From positions 1 through 64,000 of the forward strand of contig NZ_CBVI010000063.1 in assembly GCF_000513195.1 (NCBI RefSeq): a stretch of DNA of 64,000 bases. Direction: 5' to 3'. This stretch comes from Bacteroides timonensis. GTDB lineage: Bacteria; Bacteroidota; Bacteroidia; Bacteroidales; Bacteroidaceae. The translations under genes were made by a program, and so were the position numbers. Positions 55,712 to 64,000 of this stretch are shown piece after piece; positions within the stretch are counted from its first letter, which is position 1; each line of letters opens with the position of its first letter. The notes beneath the pieces are model-generated. The model was given only the letters and a program-made list of their open reading frames with translations. It did not search any database and was not told the DNA's origin.

Positions 55712-57253
55712 TTACTTTTCAGCCCACTCCTTCGCTCCCTGCTCCTTCAGTTTAGCGGTAAACGCCTTCGCCTTTTCCATTGAAGCGGCTTCCTCTTCCG
55801 GACTTGCATAAGCATGCTTGTAGCCTTTCACCACATTCCATTCACCACGGGTGAAATCGGGGAATGCCACAGCTGCACAACCGTTGTCCATGGAAAGTTC
55901 TCCCAATTCTGCAAGGCAGCACCACTCAGCAAGGTCGTATACATCCATATCCAAAGGAAGACCGTTCTGCAGGCAATATACCAGACGGCTGTCCATCACG
56001 AAGTCCATGCCTCCATGACCGCCTACTTCCTTGGCCATTTCACCGTACTTCTTCAAGATGGGATGCTGGTACTTCTCTACAAGCGCTTCCATCTCTGCTT
56101 CCGGCAGGAAACCGTGTGAATTCAAGTCATCTACCTTGGGTTGAACGCCCGATGCACTCAACTGGTCAGCGTCAAGCGCATATCCTTCCACCGGATATTT
56201 ATTAGCGAATCCCTTGGTACCCGTAAGCTGATACAGACGGTTATAAGGTTGAGCGGTCATTACATTGTGCTGGATCTCAATCACTTTTCCATTAGCAGTA
56301 CGCAATAAAGTAGTGGTGTGGTCACCGTTACGGAAGTTGTTGCAAGTTGAATCAGTACGTTCCTCTACCAATGCCTTGCCAACTACGGACTTCGTATCCA
56401 TAGCTACCAATGTAATCAGACGGTCTCCGCGATGGATATCAAGTGCCTGTGCCACAGGGCCAAGACCGTGAGTGGCATATACATCACCGCGATGCTTCAT
56501 GTTATAGTCCAAACGCCAGCCCAGCTTGTCATCCTCACCTTTCTTCCAATAATAGTCCCAAAAAGGCTCCAAGTTGTGGATGTAAGCGCCCTGAGCACGG
56601 ATAACCTCACCGAAAACTCCTTGCTGAGCCATATTCAAGGTATTCATCTCAAACCAGTCATAACAGCAGTTCTCCAAGATGAAGCAATGCTTGCGGGTAG
56701 ATTCACTCAAGTTAATCAAGTCCCAGCATTCCTGCAGGTTCATGGCCGAAGGAACTTCTATCGCCACATGCTTGCCATTCTCCAAAGCACACTTGGCAAC
56801 GGGAAAATGATGAAGCCAGTCGGCAGCAATATAAACCAAGTCTATATCATCACGTTTGCAAAGTTCCTCGTAACCTGTAGCACCGGAATAAACGGCAGCC
56901 TTGGGCATAGAAGCCTTCTCCAGAATCTTCTGGCATCCCTCCGCACGTGACGGTTCATAATCACAGAGGGCAACCACCTGCGTGCCGGGAATATAAGTGA
57001 AACGCGCTACCGCACCCGGTCCGCGCATACCCAAGCCTACAAAGCCCACACGCACTACTTCCATTTTCGGAGTAGCCAGTCCCAATACACTTTTCTGTCC
57101 GGCAGGACGTTCAGGAGTCCGCACGACAATCGTACCGTTTTTCCACTCCCACTGTGTGCCTTTTTCCGTTGTCTGCACAGTAGTGGCGGTTTGTGTTGAA
57201 CATGCGCCAAAAGCGAAGCATACACCCAACACCAAGAGTCCAATTTTCTTCAT
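55712..57253 (-). CDS. GH109-type NAD-dependent alpha-N-acetylgalactosaminidase lipoprotein
   Basis: A 513-residue lipoprotein (FGACS, Cys18). A Rossmann domain begins VVRVGFVGLGMRGPGAVARF, with the Gfo/Idh/MocA pattern continuing through AADWLHHFPVAKCALENGKH and VAIEVPSA. The C-terminal part has GGHGGMDFVMDSRLVYCLQN, DMDVYDLAEWCCLAELGE and FPDFTRGEWN, which fit GH109. That family uses bound NAD+ in a redox-elimination mechanism to remove alpha-GalNAc, for example from blood group A or mucin O-glycans. A related inositol/sugar dehydrogenase is the alternative. Transcribed after the GH31 gene with a 101-base gap that holds a weak promoter. Confidence 0.82.
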   Translation of the reverse strand: MKKIGLLVLGVCFAFGACSTQTATTVQTTEKGTQWEWKNGTIVVRTPERPAGQKSVLGLATPKMEVVRVGFVGLGMRGPGAVARFTYIPGTQVVALCDYEPSRAEGCQKILEKASMPKAAVYSGATGYEELCKRDDIDLVYIAADWLHHFPVAKCALENGKHVAIEVPSAMNLQECWDLINLSESTRKHCFILENCCYDWFEMNTLNMAQQGVFGEVIRAQGAYIHNLEPFWDYYWKKGEDDKLGWRLDYNMKHRGDVYATHGLGPVAQALDIHRGDRLITLVAMDTKSVVGKALVEERTDSTCNNFRNGDHTTTLLRTANGKVIEIQHNVMTAQPYNRLYQLTGTKGFANKYPVEGYALDADQLSASGVQPKVDDLNSHGFLPEAEMEALVEKYQHPILKKYGEMAKEVGGHGGMDFVMDSRLVYCLQNGLPLDMDVYDLAEWCCLAELGELSMDNGCAAVAFPDFTRGEWNVVKGYKHAYASPEEEAASMEKAKAFTAKLKEQGAKEWAEK

Positions 57254-57354: not shown

Positions 57355-60300
57355 TTAGAACTTATGTACACCTAACAATTTATCCACCAAGAAGCCGTCG
57401 GTCACTTTCAGATCAAATTTCACGTTCCACCTGGCTTTAAGCCTGATGACAAACAGGTCGCTGTCACCTTCAAGCGCTTCACGTTCTCCAATATTCACAA
57501 ACGTAGGATACAAAGACTTGACGCCATTGGTATGGAGTCTGTCATTTGTCAGGTTCTCCATCCCCTCTATGCCCAAGGGATGTACACCAACAAACTCATA
57601 ATCAGCCGGATTGTAAGGCAAAGCAAAGCTGATCGCATTTACAGAACGCAGTCCCGTACCTTTCACCAATACCTCGACGACCTCATCTTTGACATAAGTA
57701 CGCTTAGGCGTGCTGACGCTGATGCTCCCTTCTGCCTTTTCACTCCTGATGCCATCGGCTCCACCCTCAAGTTGTGTTGCTACCACCGAAATGTCGTAAG
57801 CATCTATCAGTCCGTTGCGATTCAGGTCTCCGTTGCTAATGTACCCTTCAAAATCGGCATCTCCCCGGCGCAGACCAGTATAGTTCGTGTAAGAAGTCAG
57901 GTCATTTTCATCGACCAACTTATCGTTGTTGATATCACCCGGCAGATAGATTTCTGTTTCCGGAACTCTGAATACATAAATCTCTTGCCCCGAACCATAG
58001 TTGCCTACAGCTTCGGTAATGCTCATCTTGATATAACGGGCTGTAGATGCCTGAGCAAACTTGAATATCTTCACTTCGTTATCGCGCTTCCAGTCGAATG
58101 CTCCCGCTTCAACCCAGTTCTCCTTGTCCATGCTACAGTAAACCGTCCCCTTCAAGATAGTTCCATTACCGGCATTCTCACGTGGCAGATAATGGAATTT
58201 TTCTACTTGACAGATAGATTTCAAATCCATTATCAAATCGAACGGTACAGCTTTTTCATTGTATTGGGTATGCCACAATTCTCCTTCTTCAAAGTCGAAC
58301 AGGCGACGGAGTGAACGGCCCTGATTGGCGGCAGTCGTCTCACCCACGATTCCATGTATGGCGAATTCCAGAGGGTCTTTCTTGGTTTTAGCACTGAATG
58401 CAGCCCAGTCAGACTGTCCTTCTTTGTTCACCGCACGTATCTTGAAATCGTAAGCAGTTTCTACATTCAGCCCCTCGAACAATAGTTCCGTATCCTTGAT
58501 AGTACTATAGTTCATGCCATCAAACTCTATTTCATAATAGTCGGCATTGTCCACCTTATTCCAAGTAGGCTTCAAAGTATAAGCAGTTATATTCTCTTCA
58601 GTAACCTGCGCTTTCGGGGCAAGCAACAGACCGGAAGTCACTCTATAATTATCGACCGGAGCAAAAACAAAACCACTTATCTTCAAAGTAATCCGATTGG
58701 CTGTGATGTCGGTAGCCGCCAACTTGACAAGCATTTGGGGATTCTTCATAATCACCTCTTTCTCGAACTCGCCGCCTTTGGTGGCAAACTTGTTCAAGTT
58801 AGGCTTGGCATCATAGAAATAGACATTCTCTTTCCGGAGAAACTCATCCATGCCGCTTGCTTCCACAAGCTTCACTTTGTTCTTTCCAACGGTTGCCTGA
58901 ACTTTTCCCGGTTTCTCGGTTACGTTGATTCTGAATTCGGTTACTTTCTCTTTGACAAAACCGTTGAAGTCGCCTTGCGTCGGATGAACAGAGACTGTAA
59001 CATCTCCTTTCTCACCGACAACAGATTCAATCAGGGTACTTACACCCTTGCCCGAACGGTATTCTTCCGTCGTTCCGTCATCATCATATTCGGTAAATGC
59101 ACTCTGTCCGTATGGATAGAGCTCGTATATACGCAGATTCTTGGCTGTTTCGTTGACGTTGTTATTGGGGGACGTCATGGGGATAATGGCTCCGTTCTTC
59201 ACGAATACGGGTAATTTCCAAAGCGGTGCCGCATAGTTGTTGATGATGCGTCCACCCTGATAGATTTCACCGGAAAAATAATCCACCCACTCACCGGCAG
59301 GCAGATAGATACCGTTACGAATATCATTTCCGCGTTCGTCTGCCCGGGTTGCCTGATAAACAGGAGCCACAAGGAAATACGGGCCATAAAGGAACTGATA
59401 CTGCGTAGACTTACCGAATGTATAAGCATCGGGATATTCGAGGAACATAGCACGCATCATAGGCAGCCCATCCACAGATTTCCTGGCAATGCTGTAGGTG
59501 TATGGCATGATTTCCGACTTCAACTTCAGATACCAGCGGTTGATGGAAGTGGCCGGTTCACCAAGAGCATGGGGATATTTCTCGTTGGCACCCCACCCGT
59601 CCATATTCAACTGCATAGGCGTAAAGGCCTTCCACTGGAAATCACGAGTGTTCACCACCGGATTCTTCCCTCCGAAAATACCGTCCATATCCGAACAAAT
59701 ATTGGGATTTCCCGACAACCCCGAACCTATATAAGTAGGGATGTGGAAACGGATATATTCCCATGCCCCTCCCGTCTGGTCGCCCGACCAGATGCCGGCA
59801 TAGCGCTGCGTGCCAGCCCAACCATCCAAAGAGATGATGAAAGGGCGGGCATCATTGCCATAGTATGTCATGATTTTCGCCACGTCCGTGATGCCGTTCA
59901 GTCCGAAAGAATATCCGGCACCTACCCAAGCAACATCCGTTTTCAGGACACGCACACCCGCATCGCGCACTTCCTTGACGATATCACGTTGCAACAAAGC
60001 ACTGATACCCTCTTTGGGATGCAAATCCGACTGTGTCCACAGCCCTATTTCCACTCCGTTCTTATGGGCATAGTCCGTCAGTTCCTTCAGGTTGCAGATA
60101 TTGCCATCCAGCGTCTCCGTCTGGCCGTAGCCGGCTCCATAACCATCGTTGGGCAATAACCAGCCCAAAGGCATATCGTGATTTCTGTAACGGTCTATCA
60201 CCGCACGCGCCGAGAACTGGTAATTGTTCTTTTCACCGTTCAGCGACTCTCTGATGCCGCCATTGTCCTTCTGGCTCTCCTTATAGCGTTTATCATCCTC

Positions 60301-61221
60301 AAACAAGATGCCGCTCTCATCTTCTTTCCAATAGTCACGGTTATAGGCATTCAGATGCCCCTGATAGAAACCGAATTTCGGCATCAATACTGGATTACCC
60401 GTCAGTTGATAGTAATCATTCAGCAAAGGTACGGCACCTTCATTTACCATGACGAAGATATCTAGATAATCGGTCTGGTGGAATAGTTTCACAATGCCTT
60501 TTTCCTCATGCCCGAAGTCATAGACCCCTCTCTTGAAAGTATGCCACAAGATTCCGTAACCGTTCGTTGACCAATAAAATGGATTAGGAGAGGCCACACC
60601 GCCATCCGTCCAGCTATTCTGGTTTTCGATAGAGATGGACTTGCCCTTGTGCGAGAAGCGGCCGTTCTGCACACCTCCGCCGTAGAAATATTCATCCGGC
60701 GTTTCCTTCAGGGTTAAAGAGACTCTGTCCTCCTGGAACTCGGCAGGTTGCAGAGTTTCAAGAACTCTCTTTCCTGTCTTAAGATTCACAACACTCATCA
60801 AACCAGTATTGTTATCGATGCTTATTTCAATGGCCTTTGTAGAAATCTTTGTCCGGTCTTTCTTGCTGTCTATAGCAATATTACCGACTTGTCTACGCGG
60901 AGACTGAACAAGTATCTCGGCCGGTGGCATTGCCTCAGGGTTTCTGATTATTCCACCTCCATTGTCTTGGAATGCTCTGAATATATTCTCACCGAAGAAA
61001 TCCAAAGACATTCTCTCATCATTGGCAAATACCACTTCAACAGTGGTAGGATTGATTGCCTGGACCGATTTAACAACACCAATCTGATTATGGACACCTA
61101 CAGTATTATAGGCAGGGTTCTCTGCATACATCTCTGACATAGAGAAAGAGAGGGAGAGAACGCTAACCCACAACACCCTTTTACTCAGAAATGCGCTTAC
61201 ACTATTAGATTTCATATTCAT
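57355..61221 (-). CDS. multimodular GH31 glycosidase with FN3, F5/8C, dockerin-like and cohesin-like modules
   Basis: A 1288-residue secreted enzyme. After a signal peptide comes an N-terminal beta-domain and a GH31 barrel (about 200-700) with nucleophile Asp429 (VLKTDVAWVGAGYSFG) and acid/base Asp481 (WSGDQTGG). The WVGAGYSFGLNG context resembles the GH31 group that acts on alpha-GalNAc rather than alpha-glucosidases (recalled, unchecked). Then FN3 (about 865-945), F5/8C/CBM32 (about 955-1085), a dockerin-like pair of calcium loops (DINNDKLVDEND and DLNRNGLIDAYD, about 1090-1150), and a cohesin-like beta-domain (about 1160-1288). It lies 21 bases after the GH2 gene and is cotranscribed with it. 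Confidence 0.88.
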   Translation of the reverse strand: MNMKSNSVSAFLSKRVLWVSVLSLSFSMSEMYAENPAYNTVGVHNQIGVVKSVQAINPTTVEVVFANDERMSLDFFGENIFRAFQDNGGGIIRNPEAMPPAEILVQSPRRQVGNIAIDSKKDRTKISTKAIEISIDNNTGLMSVVNLKTGKRVLETLQPAEFQEDRVSLTLKETPDEYFYGGGVQNGRFSHKGKSISIENQNSWTDGGVASPNPFYWSTNGYGILWHTFKRGVYDFGHEEKGIVKLFHQTDYLDIFVMVNEGAVPLLNDYYQLTGNPVLMPKFGFYQGHLNAYNRDYWKEDESGILFEDDKRYKESQKDNGGIRESLNGEKNNYQFSARAVIDRYRNHDMPLGWLLPNDGYGAGYGQTETLDGNICNLKELTDYAHKNGVEIGLWTQSDLHPKEGISALLQRDIVKEVRDAGVRVLKTDVAWVGAGYSFGLNGITDVAKIMTYYGNDARPFIISLDGWAGTQRYAGIWSGDQTGGAWEYIRFHIPTYIGSGLSGNPNICSDMDGIFGGKNPVVNTRDFQWKAFTPMQLNMDGWGANEKYPHALGEPATSINRWYLKLKSEIMPYTYSIARKSVDGLPMMRAMFLEYPDAYTFGKSTQYQFLYGPYFLVAPVYQATRADERGNDIRNGIYLPAGEWVDYFSGEIYQGGRIINNYAAPLWKLPVFVKNGAIIPMTSPNNNVNETAKNLRIYELYPYGQSAFTEYDDDGTTEEYRSGKGVSTLIESVVGEKGDVTVSVHPTQGDFNGFVKEKVTEFRINVTEKPGKVQATVGKNKVKLVEASGMDEFLRKENVYFYDAKPNLNKFATKGGEFEKEVIMKNPQMLVKLAATDITANRITLKISGFVFAPVDNYRVTSGLLLAPKAQVTEENITAYTLKPTWNKVDNADYYEIEFDGMNYSTIKDTELLFEGLNVETAYDFKIRAVNKEGQSDWAAFSAKTKKDPLEFAIHGIVGETTAANQGRSLRRLFDFEEGELWHTQYNEKAVPFDLIMDLKSICQVEKFHYLPRENAGNGTILKGTVYCSMDKENWVEAGAFDWKRDNEVKIFKFAQASTARYIKMSITEAVGNYGSGQEIYVFRVPETEIYLPGDINNDKLVDENDLTSYTNYTGLRRGDADFEGYISNGDLNRNGLIDAYDISVVATQLEGGADGIRSEKAEGSISVSTPKRTYVKDEVVEVLVKGTGLRSVNAISFALPYNPADYEFVGVHPLGIEGMENLTNDRLHTNGVKSLYPTFVNIGEREALEGDSDLFVIRLKARWNVKFDLKVTDGFLVDKLLGVHKF

Positions 61222-61242: not shown

Positions 61243-64000
<2,758 letters not shown>

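Follow-up and report, generated by a model that had tools for sequence, protein, structure and literature searches.

The window analysed here is the whole stretch of 64,000 nucleotides from Bacteroides timonensis (assembly GCF_000513195.1, contig NZ_CBVI010000063.1, positions 1 to 64,000), and the subject of this study is a gene on its minus strand for an enzyme of glycoside hydrolase family 31 (GH31) that ends in a dockerin and a cohesin. An earlier note on this DNA had described GH31, FN3, F5/8C, dockerin-like and cohesin-like modules in one chain, and the open reading frame as well as the domains were recovered as it described them. The parts of the gene are listed below, with residue numbers referring to its product.

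57355..61221, minus strand: complete gene for a 1288-residue homologue of GH31 alpha-N-acetylgalactosaminidases that ends in a dockerin and a cohesin, ATG start
61123..61221, minus strand: putative signal peptide, about residues 1-33, no lipobox (sequence reading, cleavage site placed by eye)
60517..61011, minus strand: GH31 N-terminal mutarotase-like domain, residues 71-235 (Pfam)
59470..60234, minus strand: GH31 TIM barrel, about residues 330-584, with D429 and D481 (best Pfam stretch 454-577)
59182..59469, minus strand: GH31 C-terminal domain, residues 585-680 (Pfam)
58921..59136, minus strand: DUF5110, residues 696-767 (Pfam)
58402..58617, minus strand: fn3, residues 869-940 (Pfam)
57991..58314, minus strand: F5/8 type C domain, residues 970-1077 (Pfam)
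57769..57942, minus strand: dockerin, residues 1094-1151 (Pfam, profile search, AlphaFold2 model)
57901..57936, minus strand: dockerin calcium loop 1, residues 1096-1107 (ligands invariant in 49 proteins)
57793..57828, minus strand: dockerin calcium loop 2, residues 1132-1143 (ligands conserved, D/N exchange at two sites)
57733..57765, minus strand: linker, residues 1153-1163, variable in sequence and length (comparison of relatives)
57358..57732, minus strand: cohesin domain, residues 1164-1288 (model, fold searches, family profile)
57616..57636, minus strand: conserved cohesin strand 3, residues 1196-1202 (alignment; face assignment after PMC5429695 and PMC8063739)
57496..57546, minus strand: conserved cohesin strands 5 and 6, residues 1226-1242 (alignment)

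The closest solved protein is that of chains 6m76, 7f7q and 7f7r, which we take to be EfNag31A; residues 45-951 of the window protein were aligned to it (E 4.5e-277 to 6m76). D429 corresponds to a position occupied by N in chain 7f7r, and D481 is presumably the acid/base residue of the barrel. Putatively assigned to GH31_18 by homology over the whole catalytic part and by the conserved aspartates, the enzyme is on sequence grounds an alpha-N-acetylgalactosaminidase homologue, a more specific placement than generic GH31, and its homologues suggest that it removes N-acetylgalactosamine (GalNAc). It is probably periplasmic: in a rough regular-expression check a lipobox-like motif appeared in one of 52 full-length GH31 proteins, and BT3169 and Amuc_1008 were assigned to the periplasm by their authors (PMC11992087, PMC11790493).

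The two dockerin-type calcium loops noticed earlier proved complete and conserved. Dockerin_1 matched residues 1094-1151 with an E-value of 6.8e-6 and 26.6 bits against a cut-off of 22.9, and it matched all 39 members of alignment A3, which holds the window protein and 38 named relatives. The conservation set comprised 51 full-length relatives from 58 loci (L034-L091) plus the window protein, 49 rows being left after removal of near-identical ones. Across these rows the calcium ligands of loop 1, five in number, never vary, and in loop 2 the sole variation among the five ligand sites is an exchange of D and N at two of them; ligand conservation in both loops places the motif beyond chance. Flanking helices 1 and 3 are present in the AlphaFold2 model (H21-30 and H57-64, segment numbering). 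At recognition positions 10 and 11, taken from PMC8063739, repeat 1 carries E-N and repeat 2 A-Y, so that the near-identical residues of dual binding are missing. Dual-binding residues are not universal to dockerins, and single-interface dockerins exist (PMC5429695). With its two halves thus non-equivalent, this dockerin more likely has a single binding mode than a dual one, as far as sequence can tell.

The last domain had no match in the Pfam scan of the window protein, while Pfam Cohesin was matched by 30 of the 39 A3 members at E <= 0.01 (lowest E 1.8e-9). For residues 1085-1288 AlphaFold2 gave a model with a mean predicted local distance difference test score (pLDDT) of 88.7, with the cohesin part above 90 in every ten-residue block. 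Foldseek with that model placed the Clostridium perfringens cohesins 2vo8 (E 1.2e-5) and 2jh2 (E 2.4e-5) on top, and VIA aligned 119 residues to 6kgc_A (Z 11.5, root-mean-square deviation 2.0 A), followed by CipA 1aoh_A with Z 11.0; integrin rows came next in the VIA list at Z about 8. Both searches used the whole 1085-1288 unit, cohesin matches fill both lists, and both recovered the nine-strand jelly-roll of cohesins. The terminal beta-domain, earlier called cohesin-like and open to being predicted as an unrelated fold, was thus modelled as a cohesin. The terminal pair is a true dockerin and a true cohesin fold, and its calcium-dependent binding is a prediction from sequence and model.

The two modules accompany the catalytic domain with great regularity. 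The 204-residue unit was found in 139 of 399 genomes of the family, 127 with strong matches; the remaining 12, whose matches were weak or partial, were treated separately and include G619 (residues 100-204, frame of 139 residues) and G428, where only a 42-residue open frame of the cohesin end is left (L101:5664-5789, 60% identity over 38 residues), probably the remnant of a lost gene. The unit was also present in nine of 295 genomes of the order and four of 296 of the phylum, one of the latter matching over 49 residues interrupted by stops. When named genomes were scanned, at least 40 loci emerged, 38 with the whole unit after L092 and L093 had been dropped as weak and partial; among the matches listed, carriers were Pedobacter, Elizabethkingia, Gelidibacter, Flavisolibacter, Parabacteroides, Segatella, Hoylesella, Akkermansia muciniphila and others, with metagenome bins frequent among them. 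In all 38 loci GH31 sequence precedes the unit. The contig starts inside the GH31 gene in L061 and L090; the gene lies in two frames in L056, L080, L086 and L087, and in L075 its open frame starts only at residue 427, these five being either pseudogenes or sequencing errors.

Conversely, a barrel query at E <= 1e-60 matched 124 of the 399 family genomes, all of them among the 127 with a strong C-terminal unit. Judged by eye, barrel and unit share a contig in 121 of these 124 and lie on different contigs in G582, G597 and G675, and the strong units lacking a catalytic match (G524, G537, G579) sit in short frames of 776, 715 and 170 residues. Eleven catalytic matches were obtained in the 295 order genomes, nine with both modules; of the remaining two, G922 lacks both and G844 holds a distant GH31 homologue on a contig that ends early. 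Contig ends apart, no GH31 with one module but not the other was seen in the family and order samples, and dockerin and cohesin therefore seem to be gained and lost together. The pair is a near-obligate part of this GH31 catalytic domain across Bacteroidota and not a peculiarity of one strain. At 67% identity the Akkermansia protein (L066) stands no further from the window protein than many of those from Bacteroidota do, a level of identity that suggests transfer between phyla.

In the conservation set, mean pairwise identity was highest in the barrel (0.80), then in the dockerin (0.725) and the GH31 C-terminal domain (0.653), followed by fn3 (0.486), F5/8C (0.477), the cohesin (0.468) and the linker (0.274). 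The dockerin is hence the best-conserved domain after the barrel, well above F5/8C and fn3. Within the cohesin, conservation is concentrated on strands 3 (0.81), 5 (0.83) and 6 (0.87), compared with 0.36-0.63 for strands 1, 2, 4, 7, 8 and 9. In known complexes strands 8-3-6-5 form the dockerin-binding face (PMC5429695, PMC8063739), and strands 3, 5, 6 and 8 differ from the remainder with p 0.007 when positions are treated as independent. Such a conserved face might instead bind mucin peptide or glycan and dock the substrate, which would agree with what is reported for two relatives, BT3169 and Amuc_1008, for which mucin is a substrate and the small Tn antigen is not (PMC11992087, PMC11790493). 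The need for a peptide may, however, reside in the catalytic part, and the last domain has no carbohydrate-binding Pfam match; we regard substrate docking as very improbable.

Partner modules were sought with profiles in the own genome and in 15 named genomes (taken from 16 of the 38 named loci, L063 being left out); the Pfam Cohesin profile was run on the own genome only, a profile of the window-type cohesin on all 16. Outside the GH31 protein no full-length dockerin was found in these genomes, the other matches at E <= 0.01 being partial, as with two in G994 that cover 39 of 57 positions; nor did any clear cohesin match appear in them, with one further at E 0.06. The own genome, which is 99.93% complete, yielded 13 further dockerin matches at E <= 1, all partial and 12 of them between E 0.02 and 0.58. 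At the sensitivity of the profiles used it holds a single cohesin and a single full-length dockerin, with neither the multi-cohesin scaffoldin nor the several dockerin enzymes of a cellulosome or mucinolysome. The proteome search proposed with the earlier note was thereby carried out. Partners too divergent for detection are possible, since Pfam Cohesin misses the window domain itself and weak partial dockerin matches exist.

Several by-products of these searches may be recorded. Judged from the translations, the own-genome dockerin match on contig C12 lies in a SusC/TonB-type receptor and the weak cohesin match on C16 in an RpoC-like protein, and both were rejected; a further weak match is found at C91 (L096, E 0.28). 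The genome of L058 (G986, B. faecalis) has two equal-scoring GH31 copies on contig C1, one around 263 kb and the other around 344 kb, about 81 kb apart, which reflect either duplication or an assembly effect. In other family genomes (L102, L103, L104) dockerins occur on Big_2, CotH and leucine-rich-repeat proteins, adjoining stretches that look cohesin-like by eye and have no Pfam name.

These results bear on the idea that the pair recruits other enzymes or surface proteins into a small cellulosome-like or mucinolysome-like complex. In its favour, cohesins and dockerins on different glycosidases of C. perfringens bind pairwise (PMC12997984), and the window GH31 shares an operon with GH2 and GH109 genes. 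Against this stand the missing second full-length dockerin and clear cohesin in all 16 genomes, the identity of the best additional own-genome matches (a SusC-type receptor and RpoC) and the Pfam result that neither GH2 nor GH109 bears such a module, and we hold recruitment to be improbable.

How the two modules are placed relative to one another was read from the predicted template modelling score (pTM), which was 0.83 for the window unit and 0.80 for that of Akkermansia. The linker has about 10 residues in the former and about 35 in the latter, there mostly with pLDDT 46-54. A rough accounting, in which domain sizes and errors were assumed, puts the pTM expected for a randomly placed dockerin at about 0.62 (window) and 0.57 (Akkermansia), and the observed values require a mean dockerin error of about 2 to 4 A, as estimated from pTM and not from the predicted aligned error (PAE). 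Both scores, one of them obtained across a disordered linker, point to a defined placing, and on these models dockerin and cohesin most likely face each other.

Together with the finding of a single dockerin and cohesin per genome and of a pair that is kept or lost together, the pTM values support self-locking best; the conservation of the dockerin and of cohesin strands 3, 5 and 6 also speaks for it, as does the published AlphaFold3 prediction that the C. perfringens GH31 cohesin binds the GH31 dockerin (PMC12997984). We lean modestly towards an enzyme that clasps itself by a calcium clasp in cis. The last 204 residues would then form a self-complementary clasp, in which the calcium-loaded dockerin would bind the cohesin of its own chain, presumably through the usual cohesin face, so that both modules would make one compact C-terminal body behind F5/8C. 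Such a clasp could stiffen and protect the end of a probably periplasmic enzyme and fix the ancillary domains relative to the catalytic barrel, which itself would remove core GalNAc from mucin glycopeptides. For the wider proposition, that an assembly pair has turned into a permanent calcium clasp within one polypeptide and become near-obligate in a mucin enzyme subfamily of Bacteroidota and Akkermansia, we see the case as evenly balanced. It was suggested earlier that the pair could let the enzyme polymerise, lock within itself or recruit neighbours: the second option gains from the pTM values, the single pair and the joint loss, the third loses for want of a partner, and the first lies between them in probability.

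That first option, in which GH31 molecules would join dockerin to cohesin between chains as a swapped dimer or a chain of enzymes, would account equally well for the lack of other partners and the obligate pairing, and model scores would look the same. It is countered by the model, which places the modules definedly within one chain despite the linker of about 10 residues. A tethered partner, moreover, normally outcompetes a free one, and we know of no oligomer in this GH31 subfamily. The published AlphaFold3 pairing was made with separate modules (PMC12997984), which suits binding between chains. Altogether homotypic assembly appears unlikely, though worth keeping in sight.

Several observations weigh against the intramolecular clasp. 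The placing was read from pTM, without coordinates or PAE, and is indirect, the interface itself not being seen; in monomer models, contact within a chain and between chains look alike. Strand 8, a member of the usual cohesin face, is poorly conserved (0.51). Covariation between dockerin and cohesin showed no excess in the alignment, with 16 inter-domain couplings against 14.8 expected, these were not enriched on the presumed cohesin face (0.23 versus 0.27), and the strongest inter-domain pair, V62-E138 in segment numbering, ranked 43 of 2912 after tree correction; as independent proof of module contact, covariation was tried and failed. From the literature, PMC12997984 cites an enzyme-linked immunosorbent assay of Adams 2008, in which the C. 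perfringens GH31 cohesin bound no dockerin proteins, and its AlphaFold3 models predict the same cohesin to bind a GH2 dockerin as well, so that binding need not be restricted to self in that species. Finally, G922 (L099:2498-5803) encodes a GH31 of 1102 residues that ends right after F5/8C, with neither module in the fetched stretch.

The host of this last gene lives without the pair, as would be expected if dockerin and cohesin were a passive remnant, carried over when the gene was acquired from a lineage whose complexes do work, and without function today. A functionless dockerin would hardly keep a mean identity of 72.5%, above every other ancillary domain, with calcium ligands that hardly change, and the pair persists from Pedobacter to Akkermansia; the remnant is decidedly improbable.

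The genes on either side of the GH31 gene in the window are:

61243..63999, minus strand: homologue of GH2 beta-galactosidases that also carries F5/8C; truncated at the window end, with 1376 residues in the genome (context; Pfam)
55712..57253, minus strand: GH109 homologue (context; Pfam)

Beyond the window the neighbourhood was read from L098 (contig C63, 61000-76000). In the order of transcription, and all on the same strand, it comprises SusC, SusD, an aminotransferase-fold and an epimerase-fold protein, an APH-fold kinase, an MFS transporter, GH2, GH31 and GH109. The aminotransferase-fold and epimerase-fold genes are presumably the threonine pair KBL/TDH, which would fit the use of threonine from mucin peptides. 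Kinase, MFS transporter, GH2 and GH109 together resemble the polysaccharide utilisation locus BT4240-50, which handles mucin O-glycopeptides and GalNAc (PMC11992087), the likeness being one of gene families and not of identity. The flanks covered reach no more than 6 kb beyond the C-terminal match, hence at most about 2.7 kb upstream of GH31; in them, relatives of GH2 were met in six of the 40 loci listed (L059, L068, L073, L079, L082, L087; above 45% identity only in L068, L082 and L087) and relatives of GH109 in none of these 40. There is thus no fixed close neighbour within that reach, and recruitment via linked genes was rejected, as the neighbours are not constant across loci.

Having both modules in one chain is less unusual than the earlier note held, for this architecture is in print: PMC12997984 describes it in C. 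perfringens and A. muciniphila, PMC11557425 in Paenibacillus guangzhouensis, and it is therefore already known. The new elements are that the pairing is near-obligate across Bacteroidota and that no partner could be detected. Among open-licence PMC texts, PMC5590126 had nothing on a pair that binds within the same chain. The 2026 survey PMC12997984 noted dockerins and cohesins together in 78 Bacteroidetes genomes, called this surprising and left it open. Our results suggest that part of these genomes may owe the co-occurrence to a single self-pairing GH31, for which reason co-occurrence alone should not be read as a cellulosome. If real, the clasp would put one of the best-known protein pairs to an unusual purpose.

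Among known proteins, the A. muciniphila GH31 has the same Pfam domain order and its 67% identity extends over nearly the whole protein; it differs in about 28 more residues of disordered linker and in belonging to another phylum. We infer that the GH31_18 member Amuc_1008 (PMC11790493) is this GH31 of PMC12997984. Core-GalNAc activity was reported for Amuc_1008 and for BT3169 (PMC11992087, PMC11790493). BT3169-GH31 of B. thetaiotaomicron and BACACC_01242 of B. caccae are GH31 enzymes that remove core GalNAc (PMC11992087) and presumably share the subfamily. The words dockerin and cohesin are absent from PMC11790493 and from the main text of PMC11992087. The solved chain of EfNag31A from Enterococcus faecalis (963 residues) ends after the fn3-matching region, and the protein is named as an LPXTG wall protein.

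The GH31 of C. perfringens ATCC 13124, like that of A. muciniphila and the window protein, has one dockerin and one cohesin (PMC12997984), and its cohesin is predicted by AlphaFold3 to bind the GH31 dockerin; yet its genome encodes five cohesin and five dockerin proteins, some binding pairwise, whereas in the window genome one protein was found. The monovalent adaptors of P. guangzhouensis likewise carry one dockerin-cohesin pair, often behind a glycosidase, GH31 included, but there 28 dockerin-cohesin proteins are combined with surface scaffoldins in one genome (PMC11557425).

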